Shown piece by piece: positions 23,263-56,550 of a DNA stretch of 64,000 bases. This DNA is from Sulfolobus sp. A20 (GTDB lineage: Archaea; Thermoproteota; Thermoprotei_A; Sulfolobales; Sulfolobaceae). The DNA lies in the NCBI RefSeq assembly GCF_001719125.1, contig NZ_CP017006.1:1302001-1366000 (forward strand), read 5' to 3'. The translations under genes were made by a program, and so were the position numbers. The first letter of the stretch is position 1. The number at the start of each line of letters is the position of its first letter. The notes under the pieces were generated by a model. That model searched no databases. It saw only the letters and a program-made list of their open reading frames with translations, and was not told the origin of the DNA.

Positions 23263-23276
23263 AATAACAAGTATTA
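23263..23276 (-). promoter_or_regulatory. ARA-box-like site before the isomerase gene at 23223
   Basis: Read on the gene strand the site is TAATACTTGTTATT, matching the core ACTTGTTA of the better sites. It lies 40 bp before the ATG, the same position as the others, but is a weaker palindrome. Confidence 0.4.
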
Positions 23277-23288
23277 AAGGGATCATCA

Positions 23289-23412
23289 GAGAATTCAGCT
23301 ATAAACCTACAACAAAATCAGGAGGACCCAATAGTGAGGAGGAAATTAGAGTAAAGCTAAGTATATATTAAGTTAACTTTGAAATTATTAGAAAAAGATA
23401 AGCTGAATTCTC
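23289..23412. repeat. 12-bp inverted repeat flanking about 100 bp
   Basis: GAGAATTCAGCT at 23289-23300 and its exact reverse complement at 23401-23412 enclose 100 bp between two divergent genes. The enclosed DNA holds no start-to-stop gene, although one frame reads open for about 20 codons. It could be a small insertion scar or chance. Confidence 0.35.
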
Positions 23413-23457
23413 GAGAAAAGTTTTCCCTTAAATATGTTTAAAAGGGAAAGGTGAGAT

Positions 23458-24495
23458 ATGTATAGTATGAAATATGTTAGGTTAGGAGATAGCGGATTAA
23501 AAGTGTCTCAAATATGCCTAGGCACTTGGTTTCTACCACTATTATCGGAGAAGGATGAATTAGGAGTATATAAGGTAGATGAAGAGACTACTTTAAAGAT
23601 ACTTAAGAAGGCTTACGACGAGGGAGTGAATTTCATAGATACTGCTAACGTATATCACGGGGCATTATGGGAAACGGACCCTCTACACGTGGGTTTATCA
23701 GAAAAATTAGTGGGTAAGTTCCTTTCTTCAGTGGATAGGGAATCTGTTGTAATTTCAACCAAGGTAAGGGGAAAGATGGCTAATTGGGCTAATGGAGAAG
23801 GATTGTCTAGAAAGCATATAACGTGGCAAATAAGGGAAAGTTTAAGGAGGTTGAATACTGAATATGTTGACATTTACATAATACATTGGACAGATCACGA
23901 GACCCCTAAGATAGAGACGCTCAGAACTCTAAATGATTTGGTAAGACGTGGGCTAGTTTATTACTTAGGTGTTAGCAATCATGAGGCTCATGACATAATT
24001 GAATTCTTAGAATTAAGTGAGAGATATAACTTGGAGAAGTTTAGTGTAATTCAAGATTTATATAATCTTTTAGAAAGGCAAGTAGAGAGATATAAATTAA
24101 GTATCGCTAGAAGATTTGGACTTGCGATTATGGCTTATGCTCCCTTAGCCCACGGCTTCCTAACTGGCAAATATGTAGACTTCAATAATAAGACATGGAA
24201 GGTAGATGAACTTACTAGGATTTCATTAAATGAAAGACTTAAAACTAGATATTTTAGAGATAGTCATCTTAAAGTATTACTTACGTTAAAGGAGATTGCT
24301 GATGAGAAAGATGCGACTATCTCACAAATTAGTATAGCTTGGCTTCTAAAAAGAGGGGAAGAATTTAACGTACCTATAATCCCAGTTATTGGAGTTACGA
24401 GACTAGAGCATCTAGATGATAATTTAAATGCTATTAAAATAAAATTGTCTTACGATGATATGAAAAAAATTGATGAGGCTCTAGGAAATGCTTGA
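23458..24495 (+). CDS. aldo/keto reductase
   Basis: NAD(P)H-dependent oxidoreductase of 345 residues with the TIM-barrel AKR fold. The catalytic tetrad is complete: Asp61 and Tyr66 in NFIDTANVYHG, Lys102 in VISTKVRG, and His143 in YIIHWTDH. The C-terminal half has VIPVIGVTRLEHLDDNL, which binds the cofactor phosphate. A second ATG three codons in (23467) follows a ggtgag Shine-Dalgarno-like sequence at a better distance, so the true protein may start there. It overlaps the convergent GH3 gene by 15 bp. The likely substrate is an aldose or keto sugar of the neighbouring pathway; this is inference from context. Confidence 0.88.
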   Translation: MYSMKYVRLGDSGLKVSQICLGTWFLPLLSEKDELGVYKVDEETTLKILKKAYDEGVNFIDTANVYHGALWETDPLHVGLSEKLVGKFLSSVDRESVVISTKVRGKMANWANGEGLSRKHITWQIRESLRRLNTEYVDIYIIHWTDHETPKIETLRTLNDLVRRGLVYYLGVSNHEAHDIIEFLELSERYNLEKFSVIQDLYNLLERQVERYKLSIARRFGLAIMAYAPLAHGFLTGKYVDFNNKTWKVDELTRISLNERLKTRYFRDSHLKVLLTLKEIADEKDATISQISIAWLLKRGEEFNVPIIPVIGVTRLEHLDDNLNAIKIKLSYDDMKKIDEALGNA

Positions 24496-26703
24496 AGAAG
24501 AGAAGTAATTATTTCTCTTCGTTAACTCCTTAGTTTCAACTAATTTTACACTTCCCTCAAATACACTATCGAGCGCGTTCTTAGCAACAATAACCTTATA
24601 CTCTCCGGATTGTAGAATTAATTTTAAGTCTTTATCATAAAAAGCTAACAGATCTGTAGGAATAGCGAACGTTATCTTCTTAACCTCATTAGGTCTTAAG
24701 TTGACTTTTATGAAAGCTTTAAGCTCTTTAACTGGCAAAGCTACATTACTCTTTCTTCTAGATATATATACTTGAATCACTTCGTCAACTTCGTATTTTC
24801 CCTCATTCTTAACCTCTAAGCTTAATTTAATATCCTCTCCAGCTCTCACTTCAGGTGTGAGTATCTTGAAGTTGTTGTAGCTGACCTTAGAATAAGTTAG
24901 ACCGTAACCGAACGGGAATAGAGGATCAGAGGAAGACTCGATATATTTTCCAAACGATGATGGTTTTCTAGAATAATACACGGGTATTTGTCCAGTACTT
25001 TTAGGCAATGAGACTGGGAGTCTTCCACTGGGCGAAACTTCTCCAAATATCACATCGGCTATAGCGTTACCACCTTCTTCTCCTAATTTCCACGCCCACA
25101 ATACAGCATCGACCTTATTAATTATCTTCTCTAATGACATGGGTCTGCCGGCAATTACTACCAATATTATTGGCTTTCCAAGGCTACTTAATTCTTCAAT
25201 TAATTTCGTTTGTGGCTCCGGTAGTTCAATATCAGCTCTATCAACTCCCTCACCAGATGTGCACATCTCTGGATCGAAAATACAAGACATGTCTCCTACT
25301 ACTCCTATTATTACGTTAGCCTTGCTTGCTAATTCTTTAGCCTCGTTAAGCAAGCCAAGATCTAACTTATTCACCTCAGATCCCTTAGCGTAAATTACGT
25401 TCTTGACTTTGTTTTTAATCCCTTCCAATACTGTAACTACGTTTACGTCTACTTTAAAAGTCCTAGTATGAGTCGGGAAATGATAGTCGCCAAGCATCGC
25501 TAATGGGTTATCAGCCAATGGTCCTATAACTGCGATCCTCTCATTGCTTTTATTTAATGGCAGTGAATTATTCTCGTTCTTTAGTAGTATAATTGATTTT
25601 GAAGCCACTTCTCTAGCCATTTCCCTGTGCTCCTTATTATCTAATATTTCTGGTATTTTACTCTCATCAACAAAGGGATTATCAAAGAGTCCTATAAGAT
25701 ATTTTACGTATAAAACTCTCTCAACGGCATTATCTATTATCTTTTCTGGAATTTCTCCGCTACTAATGGCATCCTCTAACTCCCTAAAACATTCTAATGA
25801 GGGAAACTCTATATTGACTCCCGCGTTAAGTGCTAATAATCCTGCTTCTTTACAACTATCAGCTACTCTATGTACCGTGTTTAGATATTTTACTGCCCAA
25901 TAGTCTGAGACAATTATTCCTTTAAAACCCCACTCCTCTCTTAGAACTTTGTGTAGTAACTCATTATTGGCGTGACAAGGAACGCCGTCAATTTCATGAT
26001 AGGCTGGCATTATGGATAATACTTCAGATTTCCTAACTGCTACTTCAAAGGGATATAAATAAACATTTCTTAGCTCTCTATTTCCGACGTTAACCGGTGC
26101 AGTATTTCTCCCGCCTTCCGGACTACCATGAGCTACGAAATGTTTAGCAGTGGCAATGAGTTGATTATTTCCTTGAAGACCAGTGATATAAGCGTTTGCC
26201 ATACTTGCCGTCAAATATACGTCTTCTCCAAACGTCTCTTCGCATCTTCCCCACCGAGGATCTCTACATAGGTCAAGGACTGGTGACAAACAATGCCTAA
26301 TGCCCAAAATGGTAGTCTGATTTCTGATTGCCTTAGTAACCTTGCTTACAGTAGTTAGATCCCATGTGCTGGACAACGCCAAAGGTATGGGAAATAGTGT
26401 AGCAGTAGGTCCCATTAGACCTGATAAACACTCTTCATGGACTATTGCAGGTATCCTAACCCTTGTTTTCTCTATTAAGTAACGTTGTATCTGATTTATA
26501 ACCTTCCCAGCCTGTTTTGGTCTTAAATTTGAGCCTACGACTCTGGTTATCTCCCCGATCCCATATCGCAATAATTTCTCCGCTTTTTCTTCTGAGAATT
26601 CATTGTTCTCTAGTAATTCATTTACTTGAATTGAACCTAATTGTGCTACCTTCTCCTCTATTTTCATTTTATTGATAAGATTTTTGATATCTGATGGGTT
26701 CAA
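24481..26703 (-). CDS. beta-xylosidase/alpha-L-arabinosidase-like glycosidase, GH3
   Basis: Retaining exo-glycosidase of 740 residues. Domain 1 (about 1-320) has DPRWGRCEETFGED, the substrate-binding KHFVAHG near 187-193 and the nucleophile Asp267 in GIIVSDYWA. Domain 2 (about 345-590) follows and a fibronectin-III-like C-terminal domain (about 620-715) closes it. Length and order match the Sulfolobus solfataricus GH3 beta-xylosidase/arabinosidase (XarS). No signal peptide. The start is TTG at 26703, which keeps the normal GH3 N-terminus (IKNLINKMKIEEKVAQL) and has GGTG about 10 nt before it; the internal ATG at 26667 would remove part of this. It is the third gene of a row with lacS and an esterase, which suits breakdown of xylo-oligosaccharides. 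Confidence 0.88.
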   Translation of the reverse strand: MNPSDIKNLINKMKIEEKVAQLGSIQVNELLENNEFSEEKAEKLLRYGIGEITRVVGSNLRPKQAGKVINQIQRYLIEKTRVRIPAIVHEECLSGLMGPTATLFPIPLALSSTWDLTTVSKVTKAIRNQTTILGIRHCLSPVLDLCRDPRWGRCEETFGEDVYLTASMANAYITGLQGNNQLIATAKHFVAHGSPEGGRNTAPVNVGNRELRNVYLYPFEVAVRKSEVLSIMPAYHEIDGVPCHANNELLHKVLREEWGFKGIIVSDYWAVKYLNTVHRVADSCKEAGLLALNAGVNIEFPSLECFRELEDAISSGEIPEKIIDNAVERVLYVKYLIGLFDNPFVDESKIPEILDNKEHREMAREVASKSIILLKNENNSLPLNKSNERIAVIGPLADNPLAMLGDYHFPTHTRTFKVDVNVVTVLEGIKNKVKNVIYAKGSEVNKLDLGLLNEAKELASKANVIIGVVGDMSCIFDPEMCTSGEGVDRADIELPEPQTKLIEELSSLGKPIILVVIAGRPMSLEKIINKVDAVLWAWKLGEEGGNAIADVIFGEVSPSGRLPVSLPKSTGQIPVYYSRKPSSFGKYIESSSDPLFPFGYGLTYSKVSYNNFKILTPEVRAGEDIKLSLEVKNEGKYEVDEVIQVYISRRKSNVALPVKELKAFIKVNLRPNEVKKITFAIPTDLLAFYDKDLKLILQSGEYKVIVAKNALDSVFEGSVKLVETKELTKRNNYFSSSSIS

Positions 26704-26748
26704 TCAAGATCAACACCAATTCAGCCCATTAGATAAAAACTATTTTGG

Positions 26749-26760
26749 TTAACACTTATT
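26749..26760 (-). promoter_or_regulatory. weak ARA-box-like site before the GH3 gene
   Basis: Read on the gene strand this is AATAAGTGTTAA, close to the TTAAAGTGTTAAA form seen before lacS. It lies 46-57 bp before the TTG start and touches the esterase stop codon. It could give the GH3 gene its own promoter. Confidence 0.25.
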
Positions 26761-27682
26761 ATTGATTAAACAAATCCTTCATTAACGCGCCAGACATTAC
26801 TAATACTTGCCTACTTACCAATGGAGAGCCAGAAAAGGAGTGAATCATACCATTCACCCTAACACTTAATGTAGGTATACCGCTTTCCATTAATCTGTAA
26901 GCGTATGCCTCAGCTTGATCTCTTAAAGGATCGTATTCTGCAGTAATTATTATCGTGTACGGAAGCCCACTTAAGTCCTCAGCTAAGAGCGGAGAGAATA
27001 GGGGATTTAGTAAATCTTTTTCATCTCTTATATAATTACGAATCATGAAGTCTATCGGTAAACCCATATCTAAACCGAAGCCCTTTCTGTATTCCATCAT
27101 TGATTTAGACGTTAAGTCAAGTCCTAAAACAGGAACTACAGCATTTTGAACACTTAATTTTACACCTTTTTGCTTTGCTAGTATAGAGCTTGTAAGAACT
27201 AGATTACCACCAGCGCTTACCCCAAACAGCCCTATTTTGTCTTTATCCCCTCCAATACTTTCCGCGTTTTTCTTCGCCCACAAAATACTGTTAAAACAAT
27301 CATAAACCGCTGTAGGGAACTTATACTCCGGAGCTAGTCTATAATCTACTGAGATGACGATACAGTCACACGTTTTAGTCAATATCCTAGAAGCACTGTC
27401 TTCTGTCTCTATACTTCCTATCATCCATCCTCCACCATGAAAGTACAATATAATTGGGTGTCCTTTCTCCCCATCTGGATAATATATCCTCACAGACATC
27501 TCATAACCGTTAGAGTCAATTTTCCTATCCTCAATCTTATATATCTGCTCTTTAGGATATTTTCTAGCCCTTTCCTCAAACATTCTTCTAATTTCTTGTA
27601 TAGTGTACTTCTTCGAGTCAAAGATGTTACTCTTATAGTATTCTTCTTCTAAATATTTTCTAACCACGGGATCTAAAGGCAT
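26759..27682 (-). CDS. alpha/beta-hydrolase, hormone-sensitive-lipase-type esterase
   Basis: Carboxylesterase of 307 residues. The oxyanion-hole motif YFHGGGWMIGS is near residue 80, the nucleophile elbow GVSAGGNL near 154-161, the acid in TAEYDPLRDQ near 247, and the catalytic His in NGMIHSFSG near 280. No signal peptide is seen. It lies 14 bp after lacS and 55 bp before the GH3 gene on the same strand, so the three are probably co-transcribed. Removing acetyl or similar esters from imported xylo- or gluco-oligosaccharides is the natural role in that setting; the family itself is broad and this is inference. Confidence 0.87.
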   Translation of the reverse strand: MPLDPVVRKYLEEEYYKSNIFDSKKYTIQEIRRMFEERARKYPKEQIYKIEDRKIDSNGYEMSVRIYYPDGEKGHPIILYFHGGGWMIGSIETEDSASRILTKTCDCIVISVDYRLAPEYKFPTAVYDCFNSILWAKKNAESIGGDKDKIGLFGVSAGGNLVLTSSILAKQKGVKLSVQNAVVPVLGLDLTSKSMMEYRKGFGLDMGLPIDFMIRNYIRDEKDLLNPLFSPLLAEDLSGLPYTIIITAEYDPLRDQAEAYAYRLMESGIPTLSVRVNGMIHSFSGSPLVSRQVLVMSGALMKDLFNQ

Positions 27683-27696
27683 TGGAAAAACTACCT

Positions 27697-29166
27697 TTAA
27701 TGCCTTAATGGCTTAACGGGTGGTATACTATTTAAGTGCTGTATTTCATCTGGAATACCTTGGTTCTTTGTAATCTCTCTATAAACTAATGCTGAAGGTC
27801 TCCAATACTGCTTCTTAGTAGAATAGTCAACCTTTAGTAAACCAAACTTCATCGAGAACCCTGAAGCCCACTCGTAGTTATCAGCTAACGACCAGTGCAA
27901 ATATCCTCTTACGTCAACTCCTTTATCTATTGCCCTATTAACTTGATAGAGGTGAGATACGAGATAGTAAGGTCTTTGATAGTCTGCATCATCGGCAATG
28001 CCATTCTCAGTGACGTACATGTAAAGATGATATCTGTTCCAATACTTAGTCAAAACATCGTTTAAACCTTCTGGGAAGAACTCCCAACCGAAATCACTAG
28101 TTGGTAATCCTGCTAAACTAACTGAATTCCTCTCACATCCATGACCATAACCGGGTAAGGCAGTATAACCTTTTTCCGTCTTTTTAACAACGGTTCTAGT
28201 GTAATAGTTTACTCCTATCCAATCCAGCTTATTACGTAAATCATCTCTTACCGCTTTTTGATTATCCTTAACGATTTCTCCTTTAATTATAGCGTCAAAG
28301 AATGACCACCTCTCGCTATGTTCAGCCATCTCTACAGCTTCCCTATCAGAATCAGTTAAGGGTTGAAACGAACTATTAGCATATATTATTCCAACGTTTT
28401 TCTTTGTTAAACTCTTTATCGCATCGTAAGCTCTCGCATGAGCTTGAATAATGTTATACCTAGCTCTCTGTGCCAATTGAAAGCTTAAATACCCCGGAGG
28501 GAATCCAGATTTTATACCAACGTAACCTAAACCAAAAACAACGTTAGGTTCGTTCATCGTAGAATATTCATCTACTAAATCATCCAATTTCCACGTTACA
28601 TAAGCTGTAAACCTAGCGAACTCATAAACTGTCCTAGTGCTTAACCAACCTATGGGTCCAGTTAAATCCCCTTTTCTAACTCTAATAGGGTCATGTAGCC
28701 ACAATGGCATTGGCCAATGATACATGTTAAGTACGAAATGAAATCCTCTACTCTTTAGATCAGTAAAGATTTCCCTATAATGATTTATTGCATCTTTGTT
28801 GGCATATTCGTCCATCCTCCTCAACACGTTTTCATTTATTTCTACGTGAACCACATCGTTCTTATTCTCGTCAAATCCTTCAGGTTTAGGTAATGGTTTA
28901 GGAAATATCCTTGACCATTCAACTCCTATTCTGGCTATTTTTAATCCCATCTTCTCAGCGTTATCGTGGAACATCTTATAGTTTCCCCAATATCCGGGAC
29001 CATTCTCTGGAAAGTCACCACTAACTAAGCCAGAGGCAATGTTTTCTTGATCGTGAACCCAAGCATACCAATCACTGTTAGGATCTTCGCTACCTGGAGT
29101 TCCCATTTCTGATTGAAATCCCGCTTGAGACCAGCCAAACTTGAAGCTCTTAGGAAAGCTTATCAT
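27697..29166 (-). CDS. lacS: beta-glycosidase LacS, GH1
   Basis: Thermostable retaining beta-glucosidase/galactosidase/fucosidase of 489 residues, the same length as S. solfataricus LacS. The acid/base Glu206 lies in STMNEPNV and the nucleophile near 387 in [13 protein letters not shown]. The C-terminus ends PPVKPLRH as in Sulfolobus LacS proteins, and [16 protein letters not shown] opens the barrel. It acts in the cytoplasm on cellobiose and other beta-linked disaccharides. TATA-like cttaaaat lies about 28 bp before the ATG (leaderless), and an ARA-box-like palindrome at 29206-29218 sits 40 bp upstream and serves the divergent gene at 29258 equally. Esterase and GH3 genes follow on the same strand. 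Confidence 0.97.
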
Positions 29167-29205
29167 GTTAGTCTACTATTAGACGTACAATTTTAAGCTT
29201 TTCCG

Positions 29206-29218
29206 TTAAAGTGTTAAA
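29206..29218. promoter_or_regulatory. shared ARA-box-like palindrome between lacS and the isomerase gene
   Basis: TTAAAGTGTTAAA lies exactly 40 bp from both start codons (29166 and 29258). The same 13-mer occurs in reverse 38 bp before the dehydrogenase at 49706. Confidence 0.55.
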
Positions 29219-29257
29219 TACAAGATATTTAGTCTAATTTTTTATTAAACATATAAT

Positions 29258-30034
29258 ATGAAAGTAGTATTCTCTAGTCTTGCCTATCCAAATTTATCCT
29301 TAGGAGAGGTAGTAAGTAGAGTTATTAATTTTAACTTTGATGGATTAGAGTTAAGAGTTGCAGATGATGGAAGGCACTTAAGACCAGAGTATCCTTTAAC
29401 CAAGGACATATTGGATTTACTTTCTTCGATAACCATTTCGGACATAGCTGGATATGCGAAATTTAGTTCAAGTGATGAAAATGAGAGAAAGAAAAATGAA
29501 AAATTATTAGAAATTTTAATTAAAATTGCTAACTCACTAAATGCTTTGGGTGTTAGAGTGTATGGCGGAGAGTTTAATGACCCTAAAATAATAGGGAGAA
29601 TTGCCGACTCGTTAAACAGAATGAGCAAAATTGCTGAAGACTATAACGTCAAAATCTTAGTGGAAACACACGACAGCTTAGCTATAAAGGAAAATATTAT
29701 CGCATTGCTCAAGCAGATCAACGAGACCATTGGCTTTGTTTATGATCCTGCGAACGTAATTTTTGCAAAAGGTAAACATGAAGAGACTTATCCGTTAATC
29801 TCGAAAAGAATATATCAAGTTCACATAAAAGACTTTGTATTCAGAAATGGTAAAAGAGTCTTCACCCTTCCCGGGCAAGGAGTCGTTCCAATAGATAAGA
29901 TAATTAATGATCTCAAGATAAATAAATATAATTATTACGTTTCAGTGGAATGGGAGAAAATGTGGCATCAAGAGTTAGAAGATGCTGATTTAGTCTTACC
30001 AAAATATCTTTCATATTTAAGAAATTTGATTTAA
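29258..30034 (+). CDS. sugar phosphate isomerase/epimerase family TIM-barrel enzyme
   Basis: AP-endonuclease-2-fold enzyme of 258 residues. It begins MKVVFSSLAYPNLSLGEVV, and the putative metal and substrate ligands are in ILVETHDS, GFVYDPANVI, VHIKDFVF and YVSVEWEKM. It diverges from lacS with a 91-bp region holding one palindrome equidistant from both starts, so the two are probably co-regulated and this enzyme may act on a product or derivative of beta-glycosides. The amidase follows 48 bp downstream. Reaction unknown: isomerase, epimerase, dehydratase or keto-glycoside lyase are all known in the fold. Confidence 0.8.
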   Translation: MKVVFSSLAYPNLSLGEVVSRVINFNFDGLELRVADDGRHLRPEYPLTKDILDLLSSITISDIAGYAKFSSSDENERKKNEKLLEILIKIANSLNALGVRVYGGEFNDPKIIGRIADSLNRMSKIAEDYNVKILVETHDSLAIKENIIALLKQINETIGFVYDPANVIFAKGKHEETYPLISKRIYQVHIKDFVFRNGKRVFTLPGQGVVPIDKIINDLKINKYNYYVSVEWEKMWHQELEDADLVLPKYLSYLRNLI

Positions 30035-30082
30035 CTGTCTTTTTAATTAAAAGATATAAAACTTGAGGACAATACTTTAGTG

Positions 30083-31597: not shown

Positions 31598-31623
31598 AAA
31601 ATAACATTACTTTTTATTAATTT

Positions 31624-34842: not shown

Positions 34843-34887
34843 CTTCCAAAATAGTGATTCTTTTTTATCAATAAAAAATTAATCTAA

Positions 34888-38818: not shown

Positions 38819-40552
38819 TTACTCTCGTTTCAGCTGTATATCAATAAAATTTCCCTTAGGTACCCTGACTTTGTTGAGTTGATTATCTGTTTTCACGTTA
38901 GCTAAATTATCCCTGATCCTAAACTTGATTTCGATATCGTAGTCATTCATGTTTAAGACTATAACTCTTTTATCGTATGGAATAAGACATACATTAAATA
39001 ATGGCATATCACTTTCGAGAGTGAATCCTAAATAATCGTAAACTATATCCCTCATAGTTTGTCTGACTATCTCCGGGTAATACTCCACGAGATAAGGGGT
39101 GTACTTAGTTAAAGATAGCAAATAAACTATGGAATTATCATATGCTATTTTATGTAATACCGGGTAACTCCTATTACCGTCAGTAGCATATAAAAGTATT
39201 TCCTCTTTTCCCTTATAATCTACTATTGGACCGACTGGAAATCCAATTTGTCTTCGGTGATCCATAGAGTAAAATTTGTCTCCTTTGATGAACGCCTTAA
39301 CATGAATAACATCATCGACCAATTCTAAACCATCTATATAACCTCCTTTAGCTATTACTTCTGTAGCTGATGAAGTCAAAATTAAACTAACTTTTTTTCT
39401 TACTAAATCAAATATATCTCCTTGCCTAATCCACTTATCTGTAATTAATACATAGTCTCCTTCATTAAAGTTATTAGATGGTAGCAAAGGTATACCAATC
39501 ATTCCTAAATAATCCTCAATATATCTGTCAGAACTGTTGGAATAGATTGGTTGAGTAACAGGCACTTTAATACCTGACAAATTCCCTTTTAGCTTATTTC
39601 TCAAATCTATTACCCCCTTTAGTTTACTCTTTAGCTCTGCTGTAAGTTCATTATAATATCCCAATAATGAACCTGCGTGAAATAATGTTACTTCCCTAGT
39701 AAGGCTTAATAGACTGAGCAGAGCTTGTTCTAAATATGACTTGACGGCAGTTGGAATACTCCAATTGAATCCATTCCCTTGATCAAACCATACTCCCAGT
39801 AACTTATCTCCAACTAATGCTTTAACGAAATTAGCAATAAAGAAAGAACCATATCTCCCCGTCCCTTCTCTCGACTCAGTTCCTACATAGATACTATCAA
39901 ACATTTCCTTTAATTTATTAAGAAAAAGCCCTCTATGATAAAAGTCCTCTCTCCACTCTGGCAATTTAAGGGTTATTTTCACTCTAGGATTTACTCTTCT
40001 AGATACGTCGACGACGTATTTCTTAGAGACATCCAAGAGCAATTCAGTCGAATATACTGCCCATAGACTACTTATCATGGCATCTCCTTTTCTTATACTC
40101 TCTATCAGCCTTTCCTTGGTTAATGAAAAACCAAATCTCTCGTTAAATAACTCTACATCATGATCAGAATAGCACCAATTCGACCAAAAATCATCTATAA
40201 TAATTTCATCAAATATTGTAGCTTGTTGACTCATAACTTTACCTACCAACTCTTTATTCTTATCATCTGATATACAGATTACGTTAAAGCCCAACGATCT
40301 CTTTTCTCCCCACCCTTCGCCCCAAGTACCTATAGCAACACCTCCTGCTACTTCAAATTCCTTCTCGAATAGATGTTTAACCTTACTCATTTCATCTGTT
40401 GAAAGTAAATAACCATCCCTATAATTCTCTAAGTATATTTTTGTAATGTTCATCTCCTTTAATAAGCTACTAATTTTATTTCTAGTCATTACATCACGTA
40501 GCACTCTTTCTACATCAAATGCAGTGAAGTACGTAGCTAATTTTAGGTCCAT
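38819..40552 (-). CDS. candidate glycoside hydrolase of unrecognised family (TIM barrel plus C-terminal domains)
   Basis: Protein of about 577 residues that I cannot place in a known family. The first 310 residues read as a TIM barrel. Strand ends carry acidic residues: IIIDDFWSNW (Asp120-121), LKLPEWREDFY (Glu199), YVGTESREGTGRYG (Glu226) and GVWFDQGNGF (Asp257). Residues about 330-460 look like a Rossmann-type (GH42M-like) domain (LGMIGIPLLP; DYVLITDKWI), and the last 100 are beta-rich. No signal peptide is seen once the start is set at the ATG at 40552; the 15 extra residues from 40597 are hydrophobic, but TATA-like tttaact about 24 bp before 40552 favours the shorter form. It lies between two oligosaccharide ABC operons, the typical place for an intracellular glycosidase. 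Function is inference. Confidence 0.6.
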   Translation of the reverse strand: MDLKLATYFTAFDVERVLRDVMTRNKISSLLKEMNITKIYLENYRDGYLLSTDEMSKVKHLFEKEFEVAGGVAIGTWGEGWGEKRSLGFNVICISDDKNKELVGKVMSQQATIFDEIIIDDFWSNWCYSDHDVELFNERFGFSLTKERLIESIRKGDAMISSLWAVYSTELLLDVSKKYVVDVSRRVNPRVKITLKLPEWREDFYHRGLFLNKLKEMFDSIYVGTESREGTGRYGSFFIANFVKALVGDKLLGVWFDQGNGFNWSIPTAVKSYLEQALLSLLSLTREVTLFHAGSLLGYYNELTAELKSKLKGVIDLRNKLKGNLSGIKVPVTQPIYSNSSDRYIEDYLGMIGIPLLPSNNFNEGDYVLITDKWIRQGDIFDLVRKKVSLILTSSATEVIAKGGYIDGLELVDDVIHVKAFIKGDKFYSMDHRRQIGFPVGPIVDYKGKEEILLYATDGNRSYPVLHKIAYDNSIVYLLSLTKYTPYLVEYYPEIVRQTMRDIVYDYLGFTLESDMPLFNVCLIPYDKRVIVLNMNDYDIEIKFRIRDNLANVKTDNQLNKVRVPKGNFIDIQLKRE

Positions 40553-40931
40553 AACTACTATTAATATTAGAGTTAAAGAATCTTCTATCATTATCATGCT
40601 TTACCTTTAAGATACTTGTTTTTAATTTCAAGAAATCATCAGATTGTACAAGTATAAAGGAGGTGATATATACTAAACCTGTTCTAGAACACTGAAATGA
40701 TATAAACATTAGTTAAATAGTAGAACTTAATACACGAGAAATCCTCGATTAGTCAAGATTATATCGATATGTATGATCTTCTGTAATATAAGGAATATAG
40801 TCAAGGTTATACATTACCTAGATGTTTAACTTTATTTTTAATACGTTTATCATAAGAGTTACATAATAATATAAGGAAATTTATATAACAATTTATAAAA
40901 TATTTGAATAAATAAGTTAATAAAAAAGTTT
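40553..40931. other. intergenic region with an unused Shine-Dalgarno-like sequence
   Basis: There is no convincing gene here. GGAGGTGAT at 40659-40667 is a perfect match to the archaeal ribosome-binding consensus on the plus strand, but the only reading frame after it runs just a few codons. The rest is A+T-rich DNA. Confidence 0.4.
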
Positions 40932-44822: not shown

Positions 44823-47165
44823 TTATCTCCTTCTTAAAGCCAATACTACTCCTATAATTATTATTATTATCACTACCACGGCTATAGCTACGTAAAGCCC
44901 AGTATTGCTACTACTGGTAACTGTGGAAGTCGTAGTTACGGTAGTTGGGCTAGTTGTCGTGACCGTGCTCGTTGTGGTACTCACTGAGGTCGTGGTAACA
45001 GTGCTTGTCGAAGACGATACACTAGTAACAGTACTGGTTGTAGTGACAGTGCTAACTCCTAACATTGCCAATAAGGAAGGCGGTGTTGCCGTAGATGCCT
45101 TACCATATAGAAATGCTAGTACATCGCTCCAAGCTTGTTGAGTAAAGTTCAATGCTTGTTGATTCGTCATTCCCGGAGGTCTAGGGGCTATATTCCATAT
45201 TATGGGTTCAGCTGGATTGGCGGCATTCCCAACATATACGTTTAGCCAGTACATATATTGAGGAGTAGAGAATCCTATATAATATTGATCTTCCCACTCC
45301 TCAAACGGCCATTCAGTTGTCGTAAAGGGTATCACTGGAGTGTTGTTCATTATTATTTGAGCCATCTGATCGTATATTTGTCTAAGTTGTGTGACATTAT
45401 TAGTCTCACCAGCTTGTATGTATAAGTTGATTAATTGCTGTGGTGGAATCCATCTTTCCCAATCAGAGAGAAGAGTTGTACTCTTCAAAATCGCTGTTAT
45501 GTTTGCTACGTATACTATAGTACTGTTATTTAATAATGAACTATTTTCTGCCCTTAGCTGAGGTAAGTTTAATAAATATTCTTGTGCTGCAGTTAAATTG
45601 GCTATCAGTGTTCCATTAGGCAGTCTTATCTCTGTGTTATTGAGGGCAGTTATATTCGCTGCATATTTACCATTCGATAATTGCACTATAGAAACTAGCG
45701 GTGGTATAACTAAGAACCCCCATACAGTATAAGGAGATAGCCAACTATCGTCTCCATACCAATAAGCTAGCTCATAATTTCCTGCCTCCATATAAGATGG
45801 TAGTGTAGAAGGACTAACTGAAACTACTTGTACTTGCAAACCTAATTCTGTTTGCATTTCTTGAGCGAAAGCATACGCTTGAGCATATACATCAGACCAG
45901 TCTACGAAATTATACAAGGTTACTGGGGGTAATGGCGTACCATTTGGAAAAGATAGTTTACCATTAATAATCTTTAATCCATGTTGTTGCAATATCTGTA
46001 AAGCTTCAGAAACATTAGGATGGATGAAGCCTTGTTGATAAATTTGAGGGGATAGCCAATTCTGTGCCATAATTGGCGGCAAATACCACGATGTTGGATA
46101 GGGAACCGCTCCATTAGGTAAATAACCTGTTGCAACGTCAGATAACTGGGTCATATTAAGGGCTAATGCTATAGCCATTCTGAACCATGTTTGATTCCAA
46201 GGCCAATAGTTTAGTTTTTGATTGTTAATATACAAATACCAGTTATTTCCACCAGTACCATTTGGAAATCCCATCATTGCGTGATAATATTGAGGATTTT
46301 TATCTATAAATAATGATTCAAGAGGTGTCGGTCCATTGCTACCTGAAGAGGCCCATTGTAATTGTCCCTCAGCTAACATTGAGTAAACTTGTGGATTATA
46401 GATTCCATAAACCTTTATTTCTGGTAAGAATGGTCTGCCAGGGATCCAATACACTGGATTTCTATAATATATCAGTAAGTTGGTACTTTGGCTAGCTAAA
46501 TAATATGGTCCCGTTCCTATGGGGACTGGTATTACTGCATTAGCCGGATTTGAAGAGTTTAGCAAAGGAGCGTATTGTTCCCATGGTACTATGTATTGCC
46601 CAGATAAAATAGTATATAATGCATAGGGAATATTGGGAGTAGTGAAATTAAATATTACTTCGTAAGGGTTAGGTGAACTCATAGTAATTTGGAAGGGGTT
46701 TCCAAACACCTTAAAGTACAGCTCGAAGGTTACTATTACGTCTTTAGCAGTGAAAGGCCACTCAATTACTTGCTGTGTCCCATTATATGTCCCATTATAA
46801 TAGAAGTACACTCCTTGTCTTAAATACACTATTAATTCATGATAATTATCTGCGAATGTCCAATTAGTGGCTAATATTGGAAGTAATTGTCCCGTATATT
46901 GTTCAGCATCAGCTAATTGCTCTAACACGAATGCCATCATGTGATAATTATCTCCATACCTAACTGAGGGTGAAAAAACATTCCAGTTTCCTTGAACGAA
47001 AGGACCGTCACCATTAGCTATACTAAACACTGGATAGTTAGAAGCATACGAAAATGTTGGTTGAGGATTAGGAGTTGGCTGCGCAATACTTACTATTCCT
47101 CCTAGGGCTATCATTAATGTCAAAAGTAGTATAGGTATCGTTTCTAAAAACCTACTTTTATGCAT
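44823..47165 (-). CDS. ABC transporter substrate-binding protein, family 5, with Thr-rich stalk and C-terminal anchor
   Basis: Secreted binding protein of about 780 residues, first gene of the second ABC operon. A signal segment (FLETIPILLLTLMIALGGIVSIA) leads into the binding domain with LRQGVYFYYNGTYNGTQQ. A Ser/Thr/Val repeat stalk covers roughly the last 50-80 residues before the hydrophobic anchor, and the tail is ALRRR. The GTG at 47171 would add two residues; I chose the ATG at 47165, with TATA-like ttatttac about 26 bp upstream. An ARA-box-like palindrome lies 38 bp before it. It probably binds an oligosaccharide and passes it to the permease pair downstream. Confidence 0.9.
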   Translation of the reverse strand: MHKSRFLETIPILLLTLMIALGGIVSIAQPTPNPQPTFSYASNYPVFSIANGDGPFVQGNWNVFSPSVRYGDNYHMMAFVLEQLADAEQYTGQLLPILATNWTFADNYHELIVYLRQGVYFYYNGTYNGTQQVIEWPFTAKDVIVTFELYFKVFGNPFQITMSSPNPYEVIFNFTTPNIPYALYTILSGQYIVPWEQYAPLLNSSNPANAVIPVPIGTGPYYLASQSTNLLIYYRNPVYWIPGRPFLPEIKVYGIYNPQVYSMLAEGQLQWASSGSNGPTPLESLFIDKNPQYYHAMMGFPNGTGGNNWYLYINNQKLNYWPWNQTWFRMAIALALNMTQLSDVATGYLPNGAVPYPTSWYLPPIMAQNWLSPQIYQQGFIHPNVSEALQILQQHGLKIINGKLSFPNGTPLPPVTLYNFVDWSDVYAQAYAFAQEMQTELGLQVQVVSVSPSTLPSYMEAGNYELAYWYGDDSWLSPYTVWGFLVIPPLVSIVQLSNGKYAANITALNNTEIRLPNGTLIANLTAAQEYLLNLPQLRAENSSLLNNSTIVYVANITAILKSTTLLSDWERWIPPQQLINLYIQAGETNNVTQLRQIYDQMAQIIMNNTPVIPFTTTEWPFEEWEDQYYIGFSTPQYMYWLNVYVGNAANPAEPIIWNIAPRPPGMTNQQALNFTQQAWSDVLAFLYGKASTATPPSLLAMLGVSTVTTTSTVTSVSSSTSTVTTTSVSTTTSTVTTTSPTTVTTTSTVTSSSNTGLYVAIAVVVIIIIIIGVVLALRRR

Positions 47166-47202
47166 AGGCACTTTTTATAAAAGATAGTAAATAACTCATT
47201 AC

Positions 47203-47216
47203 GTTAACTTGTTAAC
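47203..47216 (-). promoter_or_regulatory. ARA-box-like palindrome before the second ABC operon
   Basis: GTTAAC-TT-GTTAAC is the most regular site in the window, 38 bp before the binding-protein ATG and just upstream of its TATA box. AACTTGTTAA differs by one base from the published Sulfolobus ARA-box core AACATGTTAA, as I recall it. Confidence 0.6.
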
Positions 47217-48223: not shown

Positions 48224-48650
48224 CGACCAAAACTATCAGGAAAACAATTTAAAGTTTTTCTGTCCTATTCGTTTATGTGTTAAAAATTAAATAATCCATA
48301 TTTTCATAATATAGTGATAATAATGTAACTCAAAATAGTTTTATTTAAAAAGTTACCCTTTACTTGTTAACCTTTCTATAAAAATAGTGTAAGCGTATAC
48401 TTCCTTAAACCAAGATGTCATATAATGTAAGCTCAGCACTTGTATAGTTTCGCTTTAAATTAAAATAGATATTTTATTTTTCAGATAGCCCTATATGGAT
48501 AAGTTATACGTGAATCTCGAAGAATTTAATTCTGTTATTTTCAATTAAGTTATGGTGAATTCCTAATTGTATAATACCATTTTACAAGTCCCAATTAATG
48601 TACTAAAAATATTTCAAATTTTAATCCTAATAATATCGTAAGAAAAACCA
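48224..48650. other. intergenic region with one imperfect ARA-box-like site
   Basis: No gene is visible. TTTACTTGTTAAC at 48359-48371 differs by one base from the TTAACTTGTTAAC form, but lies 136 bp before the start at 48223, so its use is doubtful. Confidence 0.35.
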
Positions 48651-49706
48651 TTAAATTACTATATCAAAGTTTAACGGTAACCTAACAACCTCTCTTTTTG
48701 CTGAAGAGAGATAAATTGCCTTAATTAATTCTAGGCTTTTTATTCCATCCTCTCCATTTATAGGGAAATCATCATTTTCCTCATATCTCTTAAGGAAATC
48801 TCTAAATAATTCCTTATGTAAGTCTATATTTTGACTTAGTGTATCAGAAGATTTACCGATTAGCTCTTCTTTTGTTATTCCCTCAATTTTAATTGAGCTA
48901 ATTTTCCTATCCGTAATTTCTATGAAACCACTAGTCCCGTTTATCCTGATCTTTCTATATTGGCTATCCTTAGGGATAAAGGAGACCGTTTGAGCCATAA
49001 CTCCTAATGCCTTACTCTTAAACTTAAATATAGATACCGCGTTATCCTCAACCTCTATAGATGGATGAGTTAAAGTATCAACGAATCCAGAAACCTCCTC
49101 TATTTCCCCTCCAAACCATAACAAGAGGTCAATAGTATGAATGCCTTGATTAGTTAATACTCCACCACCCTCCGTGTTCCACATGCCACGCCAACTTCTG
49201 GCAATCTCATCTTTTTTATAATACTCCTTTTCATCACGATACCACTTCAACTCAGCTTCTAACAGATATACCTTACCCAATTTTTCGATTAATTCATACC
49301 TCACTCTTTTGATGTCTGGGGAATATCTCTCTTGAAATATTACACCCAATCTTACTCCATTTCTATTAGCTCTCTTAATCATTTCTTTAGCTCCAGCTAA
49401 AGTAGTAGCCATCGGCTTCTCTGTTATTACGCTCTTTCCATACTCAAACGCTTGTATTGCTTGGGGTGAGTGAAGATAAGAGGGAGTAGCAAGAGTAATT
49501 ATATCAACTTGTGGATTCCTTAAAGCTGAGTCGAGAGAAGAGAATGCTATAACATCATATTGTTTAGCTATCTCCTCTGCTAAGGTGCTTATTTGATCCA
49601 CTACACCTATCAGCTTAACGTTACTATTTTCCTTCTCTAATTCTTTTAGCGCCCTAATGTGGACTTTACCTATATTTCCCAATCCTACAACTACAACTCC
49701 GATCAT
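48651..49706 (-). CDS. Gfo/Idh/MocA family oxidoreductase
   Basis: NAD(P)-dependent dehydrogenase of 351 residues. GVVVVGLGNIGKVHIRAL binds the nucleotide, VITEKPMATT near 92-101 holds the catalytic Lys, and GGGVLTNQGIHTIDLLLWFGG near 175-195 holds the active-site His typical of inositol and glycoside-oxidising members. TATA-like ccttaaatt lies about 25 bp before the ATG, and TTAAAGTGTTAAA (49744-49756 in reverse) sits 38 bp upstream, the same site as at lacS. Shared regulation with beta-glycosidase genes suggests a substrate from beta-glucosides or pentosides; this is inference. Confidence 0.83.
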   Translation of the reverse strand: MIGVVVVGLGNIGKVHIRALKELEKENSNVKLIGVVDQISTLAEEIAKQYDVIAFSSLDSALRNPQVDIITLATPSYLHSPQAIQAFEYGKSVITEKPMATTLAGAKEMIKRANRNGVRLGVIFQERYSPDIKRVRYELIEKLGKVYLLEAELKWYRDEKEYYKKDEIARSWRGMWNTEGGGVLTNQGIHTIDLLLWFGGEIEEVSGFVDTLTHPSIEVEDNAVSIFKFKSKALGVMAQTVSFIPKDSQYRKIRINGTSGFIEITDRKISSIKIEGITKEELIGKSSDTLSQNIDLHKELFRDFLKRYEENDDFPINGEDGIKSLELIKAIYLSSAKREVVRLPLNFDIVI

Positions 49707-49743
49707 GTTCGTAGATTAGAGATTATGGAATTTAAGGCTTATC

Positions 49744-49756
49744 TTTAACACTTTAA
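49744..49756 (-). promoter_or_regulatory. ARA-box-like palindrome before the dehydrogenase at 49706
   Basis: Read on the gene strand this is TTAAAGTGTTAAA, identical over 13 bases to the site between lacS and the isomerase gene, and 38 bp before the ATG. Confidence 0.55.
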
Positions 49757-49900
49757 TAAGCCAATCTAGTACAAGTCTTAAGCCTTTCCTAATAGGGCAT
49801 AATTAAATTCCTCCCCATTGACAAGTCTTTCATTATTTAGTATAGTTTAGACATGAAATTTTACACCTTATTTCTATAAAATAAGGAGAAAAATACTTAT

Positions 49901-50410
49901 CTATATACTATCTAACCTAATTGTAATTATAGGCAATAGTACTCCTAGCATCTTTAATAACGTTCTTAACTCTTTATCATCATTAGCCCTATAGGCTTTT
50001 AGACTACCTATTGTAGCCCAAGTGTTATCATATTCATTATCACTTACTTTCTCTAACCACTCTATATTTTTACCATCTTTCTTCTCTTGAATTGCTATGT
50101 GAGTCATTGATAATGTTGGTGATGCTCCATGCCAGTGTCTTTGTCCGGGAGGGGTCCAAATCACGTCACCCTCTTTAATCTCTACAGCCTCTTCTCCTTC
50201 TGCCTTTATTATACCCTTACCATTTGTTACTATCAATAATTGACCTAGGGGATGGTAATGCCATGCTGTTCTTGCTCTCGGCTCAAATGTGACTAATGAC
50301 GCGGAGATCATGGCAGGTGGTTCGGCATCATATAGCATTTCTATTTTTACATTACCGCTGAAGTGTTGCTCTTCTCCTCTTCTCACTTGTCTAGACCTTA
50401 TTACCCGCAT
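49901..50410 (-). CDS. cupin-domain protein
   Basis: Small beta-barrel protein of 169 residues. The two cupin motifs are clear: AWHYHPLGQLLIVTNGKG near 49-66 and the PPGQRHWHGAS stretch near 87-97, with His residues for a metal. Such proteins may be isomerases, dioxygenases or binding proteins, often in aromatic or sugar-acid degradation. The cupin fold ends near residue 130, and the last 40 residues (from about DNTWATIGSLKAYRANDD) are an unexplained tail, either a real extension or read-through into decayed sequence. It stands alone between a dehydrogenase and a divergent GH31 gene. Confidence 0.78.
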   Translation of the reverse strand: MRVIRSRQVRRGEEQHFSGNVKIEMLYDAEPPAMISASLVTFEPRARTAWHYHPLGQLLIVTNGKGIIKAEGEEAVEIKEGDVIWTPPGQRHWHGASPTLSMTHIAIQEKKDGKNIEWLEKVSDNEYDNTWATIGSLKAYRANDDKELRTLLKMLGVLLPIITIRLDSI

Positions 50411-50666
50411 GCTTACCTAATTTAGAAGTTTTCGAAACTCTGTTATAAAGTTTTGTAAATAAGGCTCAGAATTTATATTAAGGAACTTAGTCAACATTCT
50501 GTTTTATCTAAGAGATTTGATTTATATATTTCAGCATATATTTAAAATCTACTATAACAGTTTATACTTACTATGTTTAAGTATGATATTGATTTCCATT
50601 AATTCGTTACTCTAAAAATTTTTGCAATACTTAAGTCTTATATATTTCTTGATTTAACGCACTATC

Positions 50667-52757: not shown

Positions 52758-53631
52758 ATTCAGCTAATATTTTTTGAATGATCTTTAAAGCTTGTTTTCT
52801 CTGTTCATCGCTTAATTGTGGTAGAGGCGGTCTCACCACTGAAGATGAGATCAATCCCTTTAATTCAGCTCCTAATTTTGCGAGGTGAGCCATAGTTATC
52901 GGAGGTTTGATTATCGACCTATATTCTAATAATAGGTCATATAGTTTAAAAGCCCTCTCGTACTCTCCTCTTACGTAACTCTCGTATATTTTTATAGGTA
53001 ATGAAGAGAAAGAACCCATAGACGTGGTGAAACCCTTAGCGCCCAATATCATTCCAAGTAATGCTCTCTCCTCTAATCCATCTATCACGTCTATTTTAGA
53101 ACCCACTAACCTAACAACTTCTTTAAATTCTACTACGTTATATCTAGCTTCTTTTAATGCTTTTATGGAAGGCACTTCTCTAACTAATTCATATATAAGA
53201 TTAGGCGATAGATCAAAGTTAATCACAGATGGATTATTATAAATCACTATATCCATTTCACATAAAGAACTTACTAATTTAAAATATTCAATAATCCCCT
53301 CATGGTTTCCTTTAAGATAATAAGGTGGTGTAAGCATTACTCTCTTCACACCTAAATCACGATATTTTTTGCACAAATTTCCCGTTTCTACGTATGACGT
53401 TGATGAGGCACCAGCTATAACTTCTGACTTGTTAACGCTTTTTACAACGTTCTCTACTACTTTTACTCTTTCTTCGATTGATAGAGAAGAAAACTCTCCT
53501 GCAGTACCTAAAGGGACTATATATCTCATGTTAACGTTTTCAGCATAACTTATAATATTTCTTAAACCTTGTATGTCTAATTCAAGGTTCTTATTAAATG
53601 GGGTTATATTAGTTAGGAAAACTCCTTCCAC
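52750..53631 (-). CDS. DHDPS/N-acetylneuraminate-lyase family lyase or dehydratase
   Basis: Class I Schiff-base lyase of 293 residues. PLGTAGEFSSLS near 40-51 equals the family GTTGE motif, Tyr131 lies in IVIYNNP, and the Schiff-base Lys is probably Lys160 in ALKEARYN. The gene is 21 bp after the enolase-superfamily gene and surely co-transcribed with it. In this fold, 5-keto-4-deoxyglucarate dehydratase/decarboxylase would use the product of a glucarate dehydratase; an aldolase for 2-keto-3-deoxy sugar acids is the other option. It differs clearly from the Sulfolobus KDG aldolase (KdgA). It overlaps the convergent GH31 gene by 8 bp. Confidence 0.82.
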   Translation of the reverse strand: MEGVFLTNITPFNKNLELDIQGLRNIISYAENVNMRYIVPLGTAGEFSSLSIEERVKVVENVVKSVNKSEVIAGASSTSYVETGNLCKKYRDLGVKRVMLTPPYYLKGNHEGIIEYFKLVSSLCEMDIVIYNNPSVINFDLSPNLIYELVREVPSIKALKEARYNVVEFKEVVRLVGSKIDVIDGLEERALLGMILGAKGFTTSMGSFSSLPIKIYESYVRGEYERAFKLYDLLLEYRSIIKPPITMAHLAKLGAELKGLISSSVVRPPLPQLSDEQRKQALKIIQKILAEFN

Positions 53632-53652
53632 TCTATAACACCCCTCTCTTCT

Positions 53653-54852
53653 CTAATGGCAATCACATTTCATGAAGTCCGTCTTAGGAATAGTTGGTAT
53701 ACTTTTACTATCCTTACTCAAGTGATAAACGTATTCTCCACTTTCTTTATATAACGTCTCAAATCTATCTACCTTATTCTCATCGACTTCAATTCCTAAT
53801 CCTGGATCGTTAGGTACTTTAATTTTTCCATTTTCAATTTTTAACGGTCTCTTTATTATATCACCAGCTAGATGAATGTAGTGAGTATCTATTGCATAGC
53901 TTAGGTTAAAAGTGGAGCTAGCAACTTGAACCATAGCTGACAGAGATATTCCAGTTTCACTAGGGCTATGCATACCTAATTCTAAACCAAGTGCCCATAA
54001 AGTAGCTGACAATTCCAAATATCCATAAACACCAAACCACCAATGCGGATCCCCTAAAACTATATCTACGCACCTCTTCGTATAAACGTTTTGAATGTCT
54101 TCAAATCTAGTCGCAACAGTATTAGTTGCCACGGGGAACTTCGATGCTTCCTTAAACGCTCTTAAGCCTTCACATGTCCACACTGGATCCTCAAAGTATT
54201 CTATATTAGCTCCTTCTAAGCTTCTGGAAACGCTTAAGGCCTCAGATAAGTTCCATCCCCCATTAGGATCAACCCTAAACTTAACTTTAGGAATTTCAGT
54301 TGCCATCGTCTTTATGGCGTCAATTTCATGCTCAGGCTTGAATACTCCAGCTTTTAGCTTAATAACTCTAAATCCATACTCTTTTACGATATTTTTTACC
54401 ATTTTCACTAAATCATCAACGCTTATTGTCTCCGGTGTTGCAAATATGTAGCCAGAAGTCTCCACCTCGTCCCTTACCTTACCTCCAAGCAAATCATGTA
54501 AGGGTAAGCCTAAAGCTTTCCCTTTAATGTCTAGCAATGCAGTCTCTATAGGGAACCATATCTGAGGTAAGAGTTGATTATAATAAGTTGTCGTTATGGG
54601 GGCAGCTACCTTATATCTCAATCTTCTAATATTAAAAGGGTCTTCTCCTATTAATAAATCTTTAAGTTTATCTATTAGGGGAACTAGAGAATAACCACCT
54701 CCACCCGTCTCCCCATATCCTACTATTCCCTCATCAGTACTTATCTTAACCAGCGTGAAAACCGTAGTACCAGGATGTTCACCAGCCACTCGTAGCAATC
54801 TTCTTTTAAGAGGTAAAGAGATACTTTTCGCTTCTACTTTAGTTATTTTCAT
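53653..54852 (-). CDS. enolase-superfamily sugar-acid dehydratase, glucarate-dehydratase-like
   Basis: Mg-dependent acid-sugar dehydratase of 399 residues. The KxK motif is Lys165/Lys167 in VIKLKAGV. Metal ligands are Asp195 in RVDPNGGW, Glu221 in YFEDPVW and Asn244 in VATNTVA; Asp268 in GDPHWWFG and His295 in GMHSPSETGISLSAM form the His-Asp pair. Asn as third ligand and the MHSxSExGISL motif are features of glucarate dehydratase rather than gluconate dehydratase. The unusual C-terminus ends MKCDCH. An ARA-box-like palindrome lies 38 bp before the ATG, with TATA-like catttattt about 27 bp upstream. The expected product, 5-keto-4-deoxyglucarate or a related keto-deoxy acid, would go to the lyase encoded 21 bp downstream. 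Confidence 0.83.
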   Translation of the reverse strand: MKITKVEAKSISLPLKRRLLRVAGEHPGTTVFTLVKISTDEGIVGYGETGGGGYSLVPLIDKLKDLLIGEDPFNIRRLRYKVAAPITTTYYNQLLPQIWFPIETALLDIKGKALGLPLHDLLGGKVRDEVETSGYIFATPETISVDDLVKMVKNIVKEYGFRVIKLKAGVFKPEHEIDAIKTMATEIPKVKFRVDPNGGWNLSEALSVSRSLEGANIEYFEDPVWTCEGLRAFKEASKFPVATNTVATRFEDIQNVYTKRCVDIVLGDPHWWFGVYGYLELSATLWALGLELGMHSPSETGISLSAMVQVASSTFNLSYAIDTHYIHLAGDIIKRPLKIENGKIKVPNDPGLGIEVDENKVDRFETLYKESGEYVYHLSKDSKSIPTIPKTDFMKCDCH

Positions 54853-54889
54853 AATTATCTATTTTTATACTTCGCAAATAAATGTAAGT

Positions 54890-54903
54890 GTTAACAAGTT
54901 AAT
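54890..54903. promoter_or_regulatory. shared ARA-box-like palindrome between the dehydratase and the gene at 54942
   Basis: GTTAAC-AA-GTTAAT lies 38 bp from the ATG at 54852 and 39 bp from the GTG at 54942, nearly the same symmetric layout as at lacS. Confidence 0.6.
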
Positions 54904-54941
54904 AAAGAAACTTTTAGTAGACTGATGATAAAAATAGCAGA

Positions 54942-56414
54942 GTGATCTATATGAATAATCTAAATTTACGAAAATTTATAACATATGATGAAGTAGGAAT
55001 GGGACAAAACCAATTCAGATGTTTCTATATGACTTTCCACCCTTCTAATGGGAAGTTAATAATTCATGAAGGACATTCGGGTAAAGTCTATGCTGAAGAA
55101 AAGCTAATATACTCTTATGAAGTCTTAGGGAAACTTCCTAAAGCTGGAGGGGATACGCATGGAGCAATTACTAACTCCAAAGACCTAGTATTTTTCGGAG
55201 GTTGGCTAAAAGCTCCTCCTGGACTATTGGTTTCGAGTGACAGAACTTTGGTTAAGCAGGACATGAGGGAAAAATACAGCCATATACACGCCATAGATGA
55301 TAAGGATAGAGTAGAATTATTGTGGAGTAGAAAGTGGGATGATAAGATACCACCTAATCATTGGTATGGAGAAGTAACCGACTTAGTTTATGACGGTCAT
55401 GAGAATACCTTATATTTCTCTAGGGCTGATGGTCATGCTGAACTAGGACTATGGAAACTAAGCTTAGGCGATAGAAAGGCTGAGTGGATAATTAGAGATA
55501 GGACTGTTTATAAATTGGAGATTAAGGATGACAAGATTTTTGGTACTGTGTTCAACCCAGCTCACTTTGAAAATTCATCTATAGTAGTTTATGATATGAT
55601 AGAAAATAAGTCTAAAATAGTTGAGGAGTTTGAATTTGGAATAAACCTTGATGATAAGATCAAAATTAAACGTGACGGAGGACAAATCGTTCAGCTTCAG
55701 AATAAGTTAATATCGTTTTACGGTGGAGCTCTCGTAGTATCTGATCCTTATAAGGATAAACACACTTTATATCCCTTCTTAGAGGTAATTAACAATGAGT
55801 CGGAAAGACCTTCTTATATACCCGGATTGAGAACCCAAAAAGTTTACTTGATGGGAATTCCTATCATAGGGGTTAATCCTTCGGAAGGGCTTACAGAACC
55901 TACACTTAGGACTACGGTAAGTATGATTTTAAGAGTTGACCCAGTCGTTCCTCAAATAATCTCCATCAGCGGATTTATATCTGGAATAGTGAGCGATGGT
56001 TATAACGTATATTTCGGCACATCTTATGCTAATCATTCCCCGGCTTACACTTATAGGAGTGGTGAGGGAAAAATTTACGCCATAAGAACAAGGGAATTAA
56101 TGTCAAACGCATGGAATGCTATTAGAATATGGATCTTTGATGGAAGTTACGTGAAGGGAAATACTGGCATTAAAGGTTGGTTTGGGGGTATACCACTGAA
56201 AGGTTTCACAAATAAGAAGTTGAGAGTTTTTACTGATGAAAGCACTAACCTAAACATCTGTGAATATAACTTATTATCAAAGGTTGTTGAAGATCACATT
56301 CACTTAAGAGAGGGATGGAATACAGTAGATCTATCCTCATACTATGATCTTCTAGCCTTCTCTTTTGATGAAAATATCAAAAGAATTAAGATGGAAATAA
56401 TTTTAGATCCTTGA
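54942..56414 (+). CDS. archaeal protein of unknown function, probably beta-propeller (DUF2139-like)
   Basis: Protein of 490 residues with many short beta-strand repeats (for example FGGWLKAPPGLLVSSD, LYFSRADGHAELGLWKL, VYFGTSYANHSPAYTY), suggesting a propeller of about 1-400 and a C-terminal beta domain (IRIWIFDGSYVKG). I believe it belongs to the archaeal DUF2139 group, without certainty. No signal peptide or membrane helix. The GTG at 54942 would be leaderless given TATA-like cttttagta about 27 bp upstream; the ATG at 54951 with gagtgat before it is the alternative. It shares an operator-like palindrome with the glucarate-dehydratase-like gene, so a lactonase or sugar-acid-related role is attractive. 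Propeller lactonases (gluconolactonase-like) are a precedent, not proof. Confidence 0.65.
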   Translation: MIYMNNLNLRKFITYDEVGMGQNQFRCFYMTFHPSNGKLIIHEGHSGKVYAEEKLIYSYEVLGKLPKAGGDTHGAITNSKDLVFFGGWLKAPPGLLVSSDRTLVKQDMREKYSHIHAIDDKDRVELLWSRKWDDKIPPNHWYGEVTDLVYDGHENTLYFSRADGHAELGLWKLSLGDRKAEWIIRDRTVYKLEIKDDKIFGTVFNPAHFENSSIVVYDMIENKSKIVEEFEFGINLDDKIKIKRDGGQIVQLQNKLISFYGGALVVSDPYKDKHTLYPFLEVINNESERPSYIPGLRTQKVYLMGIPIIGVNPSEGLTEPTLRTTVSMILRVDPVVPQIISISGFISGIVSDGYNVYFGTSYANHSPAYTYRSGEGKIYAIRTRELMSNAWNAIRIWIFDGSYVKGNTGIKGWFGGIPLKGFTNKKLRVFTDESTNLNICEYNLLSKVVEDHIHLREGWNTVDLSSYYDLLAFSFDENIKRIKMEIILDP

Positions 56415-56458
56415 GAAGTCACAAATATCCAAACTCTAAAGCAAATTATAAGATCATG

Positions 56459-56480
56459 TAATTATCTCGTTAGATAATTA
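56459..56480. repeat. 9-bp perfect inverted repeat with 4-nt loop
   Basis: TAATTATCT-CGTT-AGATAATTA lies 44 bp after the stop at 56414 and about 110 bp before the glucose dehydrogenase ATG. It could be a regulator site or an RNA hairpin at a transcript end; A+T-rich composition raises the chance of coincidence. Confidence 0.4.
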
Positions 56481-56536
56481 TGGTATTATGCATCGTTTCT
56501 ATAAAAATTATATAATTGTATCTAATTCTTAAGATT

Positions 56537-56550
56537 TTTAACTTGTTAGT
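56537..56550 (+). promoter_or_regulatory. ARA-box-like site before glucose dehydrogenase
   Basis: TTTAACTTGTTAGT keeps the 11-base core TTAACTTGTTA and ends 41 bp before the ATG at 56591. TATA-like cttaaaat lies between, centred about 28 bp before the start. Confidence 0.55.

Follow-up and report, generated by a model that had tools for sequence, protein, structure and literature searches.

We analysed a window of 64,000 nucleotides from Sulfolobus sp. A20 (contig NZ_CP017006.1, positions 1,302,001 to 1,366,000); coordinates are those of this whole stretch unless given as genome positions. The genes considered here are the following.

27697 to 29166, minus strand: lacS, GH1 beta-galactosidase BgaS (NF041004, 878 bits, above the cut-off)
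29258 to 30034, plus strand: xylose-isomerase-like TIM barrel protein, IolE-like (PF01261)
44823 to 47165, minus strand: ABC solute-binding protein, SBP_bac_5 (PF00496)
48651 to 49706, minus strand: Gfo/Idh/MocA dehydrogenase (PF01408)
53653 to 54852, minus strand: enolase-superfamily sugar-acid dehydratase (MR_MLE), glucarate/arabinonate dehydratase-like (below all curated cut-offs)
54942 to 56414, plus strand: DUF2139 protein (PF09910), the propeller-like protein of the original prediction
56588 to 57691, plus strand: glucose dehydrogenase (GDH), closely related to the solved glucose dehydrogenase 2cd9
62161 to 62865, minus strand: HTH_10 protein, a distant XylR paralogue with a different recognition helix (22% identity to A20 XylR)

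A 592-residue protein encoded at 38819-40597, in the oligosaccharide transporter cluster, had no Pfam match, and scanning the window against Rfam gave no hits.

Palindromic sites and their distance to start codons

The original prediction described six sites of the form TTAA[AC][GT]TGTTAA[AC] before eight start codons. Four of the six fit this pattern (29206 plus, 47204 plus, 49744 minus and 54890 minus), which are all the matches in the window, compared to 0.03 expected from shuffled sequences. The site at 56537, TTAACTTGTTAG, deviates by a single mismatch, and the one at 23263 does not match: it has only ACTTGTTA in common with the pattern and ranked 1219 of 214,000 positions with the ARA-box matrix presented below. 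Site 23263 was dropped together with its start codon, leaving five sites and seven start codons. The listed start of the isomerase open reading frame at 22408-23286 is probably too far upstream, as the relatives begin near ATG 23226. A further site, at 4894, was absent from the earlier list. The sites are given below, with distances counted as the bases that separate the 12-mer from the start codon.

29206 to 29217: class-2 site TTAAAGTGTTAA, between the divergent lacS (minus strand, 39 bp) and IolE-like (plus strand, 40 bp) genes; matrix rank 120 of 214,000
47204 to 47215: ARA-box TTAACTTGTTAA, before the ABC solute-binding protein gene, 38 bp to its ATG (47165); matrix rank 4
49745 to 49756: class-2 site TTAAAGTGTTAA, before the Gfo/Idh/MocA gene at a distance of 38 bp; matrix rank 120
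54891 to 54902: ARA-box TTAACTTGTTAA, between the divergent MR_MLE dehydratase (minus strand, 38 bp) and DUF2139 (plus strand, 39 bp) genes; matrix rank 4
56538 to 56549, plus strand: ARA-box TTAACTTGTTAG, before the glucose dehydrogenase gene, 38 bp to a TTG and 41 bp to an ATG; matrix rank 1
4894 to 4905: ARA-box TTAACTTGTTAA, upstream of an aldehyde oxidoreductase gene at a distance of 97 bp

The five sites before the seven start codons form an abrupt series at 37-41 bp, and the distances of 38-41 bp reported originally were correct for all five. In a 214-kb region, nine genes had a site with a palindrome score of at least 9 at 37-41 bp, whereas the frequency at other distances predicts 0.22 (P about 2e-12), and ten against 0.76 when all alternative starts were allowed; this region was picked for holding the sites, so that the P values are flattering and descriptive only. 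A TATA-like box, also correctly anticipated, starts about 8 bp past most sites and about 30 bp ahead of the start codon. The sites thus lie directly upstream of BRE/TATA, the exception being the one at 4894, and their spacing together with the TATA-like box fits leaderless promoters.

Genome-wide tests consisted of pattern searches and selected stretches. The exact pattern had 13 matches in the whole A20 genome, compared to six for a reversed control. Five of them are located 37-40 bp from a large open reading frame and show no sign of being inside another gene, and all five precede sugar genes: they are the four window sites plus a fifth in front of an MFS sugar transporter at genome position 1408394. 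Another match, at 459898, lies 38 bp from an ATG that looks internal, and matches inside genes were discarded as chance. The looser core TAACWWGTTA occurred 34 times and its control 17 times, and the sites at a plausible promoter distance were found mainly in the sugar island. A match to TAACATGTTA located 38 bp before ATG 1074220 was set aside because it overlaps the likely true start of a nucleotidyltransferase.

These results bear on the possibility that the repeats arose by chance from A+T-rich promoter DNA, or that they constitute a general promoter element. With one mismatch allowed, the 10-base core is barely enriched in the window (16 versus 11.6), and to that extent a chance origin finds some footing. 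The strong distance preference, the confinement of the sites to sugar genes and the retention of the box at five types of promoter across the genus (see below) argue against it, however, and we regard this explanation as extremely improbable.

Comparison of the sites with known ARA-boxes

The ARA-box matrix was built from targets outside the window only. The known ARA-box promoters taken were those of araS from seven species, of DOPDH/KDAD from ten and of xylF from S. acidocaldarius. Of the seven Saccharolobus species, six have AACAAGTT as the core of the araS box and one has AACTAGTT; the core of DOPDH/KDAD is AACATGTT. In S. acidocaldarius, TTAACATGTTAA is located 41 bp before the start of xylF, with the HTH_10 gene xylR nearby. 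Known ARA-boxes have AT, TT/AA or TA at their centre, and the box tolerates different central base pairs.

The window core AACTTGTT is the reverse complement of AACAAGTT and is therefore a known form of the ARA-box. Accordingly, the core is not one base away from the ARA-box, as had been proposed, but identical to the araS box core of those six species, and the term "ARA-box-like regulon" was right, if over-cautious for three of the sites. The sites at 47204, 54891, 56538 and 4894 all carry the palindromic core AAC-N2-GTT, and the matrix places all of them among its 11 best of 214,000 positions; judged by their sequence, these four are ordinary ARA-boxes.

The distinction of two site classes turned out to be real. 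In the AAGTGT-type sites one half is weakened to TTAAA, while the other is a perfect GTTAA. The sites at 29206 and 49745 both have matrix rank 120 and lack the AAC-N2-GTT core, and we therefore do not count them as ARA-boxes; XylR may bind them weakly, or they may belong to a second regulator. Membership of the AAGTGT-type sites at lacS and Gfo in the regulon is accordingly uncertain.

XylR and other HTH_10 proteins as candidate regulators

XylR itself belongs to the HTH_10 family. The A20 XylR orthologue is encoded outside the window, at genome positions 1400529-1401221, directly before araS. It is 50% identical to the XylR of S. acidocaldarius, here assigned from gene order and not from a label, and shares with it the recognition helix VTKVALDRxIRN. 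The S. acidocaldarius HTH_10 gene in question (1937314-1938009) adjoins the xylFGH operon, a gene order as described for xylR (Saci_2116; PMC7264815). The original prediction named "the HTH_10 protein or the XylR homologue" as candidates. The two are not separate families, and the HTH_10 protein of the window (62161), being a distant paralogue with 22% identity, was ruled out as XylR. The candidate regulator is thus probably the XylR orthologue outside the window and not the HTH_10 protein within it. HTH_10 matches number 16 in the A20 genome, compared to 6-7 in two genomes of the S. acidocaldarius genus, and any of the 16 might read a similar site. Several HTH_10 genes are scattered through the sugar island (genome positions 1364161-1428051).

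Two alternatives involve such paralogues. According to the first, XylR would act on the AACTTGTT sites and a second HTH_10 protein, perhaps the A20-specific one at 62161, on the TTAAAGTGTTAA sites. The two class-2 sites are identical over 13 bases, lie at equal distance and score far below the ARA-boxes; about 1 Mb of sequence from relatives showed no class-2 site in front of a gene, and the HTH_10 protein of the window differs in its recognition helix and is without close relatives in the loci examined. These observations would suit a separate regulator. Just two class-2 sites at promoters are known, however, their perfect GTTAA half and unchanged spacing may equally mark them as weak XylR sites, and the absence of an orthologue of the HTH_10 protein applies to the examined loci only. 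Hence we consider a division between two regulators unlikely.

The second alternative is that all sites are read by an HTH_10 paralogue other than XylR, forming a regulon for hexoses and oligosaccharides that runs alongside the pentose regulon and is based on a similar palindrome. The mixed hexose and oligosaccharide functions of the genes would agree with this, as would the HTH_10 genes of the sugar island, one of which is located near the MFS gene that has the box in A20 and relative G012. However, the araS promoter, a known pentose target, has the identical core, so that XylR must already read it, which makes a parallel regulon of this kind quite improbable.

Conservation was observed at some of the promoters only, so that the expectation of conservation in related species was borne out in part. 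The box is kept genus-wide at araS and DOPDH/KDAD, and is present in three species at the promoter of the MFS sugar transporter, in three species at that of the ABC binding protein and in three relatives at the isomerase beside Gfo. Box and TATA have the same spacing in the relatives' promoters for the MFS and isomerase genes, and also at the ABC binding protein of relatives G016 and G015, where the start codon is further downstream. A box at lacS was not found in 15 other promoters from relatives, nor was one found at the MR_MLE, Gfo and GDH orthologues of relatives apart from a weak GDH candidate in G008. Given boxes shared at some promoters and absent from others, the regulon appears to be partly common and partly either an A20 addition or a loss elsewhere.

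Three relatives retain the ARA-box at 4894 in their intergenic region (with one change in G016), inside a conserved block. Four Saccharolobus species share this block (4840-4905), which is located upstream of the aldehyde oxidoreductase gene at 5003-7180 and combines the ARA-box with AAAGAGT and ACCTTA in the minus-strand reading. It may serve as a composite control region, or else as promoter for an unannotated RNA on the minus strand.

A20 contains a second glucose dehydrogenase gene (genome positions 1297555-1298655) whose product is 83% identical to that of the window copy, and both are at most 71% identical to those of relatives. These identities suggest a duplication in the A20 lineage. 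No ARA-type box was found at the second copy, the window copy alone having one, and the pair, with and without box, offers a clean test of promoter rewiring. A recent rewiring of central sugar metabolism in A20, in which new ARA-type boxes arose at lacS, one glucose dehydrogenase copy and their neighbours, and in which a lineage-specific HTH_10 paralogue acts on the variant box, seems rather doubtful to us. If true, it would exemplify growth of an archaeal regulon by site birth and regulator duplication.

A proposed enlargement of the XylR pentose regulon

The reading we consider likely is that the sites are ARA-boxes, that A20 XylR is the protein most likely to bind them and that the pentose regulon has been enlarged in A20. 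It builds directly on what was observed: the sites and how they are spaced, a sequence identical to that of the araS box, and a XylR whose recognition helix is unchanged. On this reading the sites are 12-bp palindromes, TTAAC-N2-GTTAA, placed just upstream of BRE/TATA in leaderless promoters. In the presence of pentoses, a dimer of A20 XylR would bind the boxes and help to recruit the transcription machinery. Activation from just upstream of BRE/TATA by XylR has been shown for S. acidocaldarius, in which pentose induction needs both the box and XylR (PMC7264815). Genus-wide members of the regulon would be araS, DOPDH/KDAD, the MFS transporter and the ABC binding protein, and the presumed A20 additions are the window copy of the glucose dehydrogenase and the sugar-acid dehydratase with its divergent DUF2139 neighbour. 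The lacS, isomerase and Gfo dehydrogenase genes probably joined via weaker variant boxes. Rather than inventing a new switch, A20 thus seems to have brought additional genes under a known one. Transporters, an isomerase, a dehydratase and a glucose dehydrogenase copy become likely new members of the regulon, which suggests that the pentose switch in one species also controls oligosaccharide and hexose enzymes.

The pentose regulon of Sulfolobales with its ARA-box is reportedly the subject of work by Brouns from 2006. As in the ARA-box/XylR regulon (van der Kolk 2020, PMC7264815), the A20 ARA-boxes have AAC-N2-GTT with flanking TAA/TTA before BRE/TATA, a XylR orthologue is present, and A20 araS and DOPDH/KDAD carry the box. 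A20 differs in that the box is also found at a glucose dehydrogenase copy, the MR_MLE/DUF2139 pair and the ABC binding protein, and in that variant boxes occur at lacS, the isomerase and Gfo, whereas no box was found at the lacS, Gfo, MR_MLE and GDH orthologues of relatives, the weak GDH candidate of G008 aside.

In S. solfataricus, lacS, amyA and malA are under coordinate catabolite control. Control of lacS by the carbon source is common to that system and the situation proposed here, but the lacS promoters examined from other Saccharolobus species lack the palindrome, and the A20 lacS site would therefore constitute a separate input. A publication on the xyloglucan enzymes contained nothing on regulation. 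Since lacS serves as a standard reporter in Sulfolobus, and ARA promoters as standard tools for expression, a link between lacS and the ARA-box would also be of practical use.
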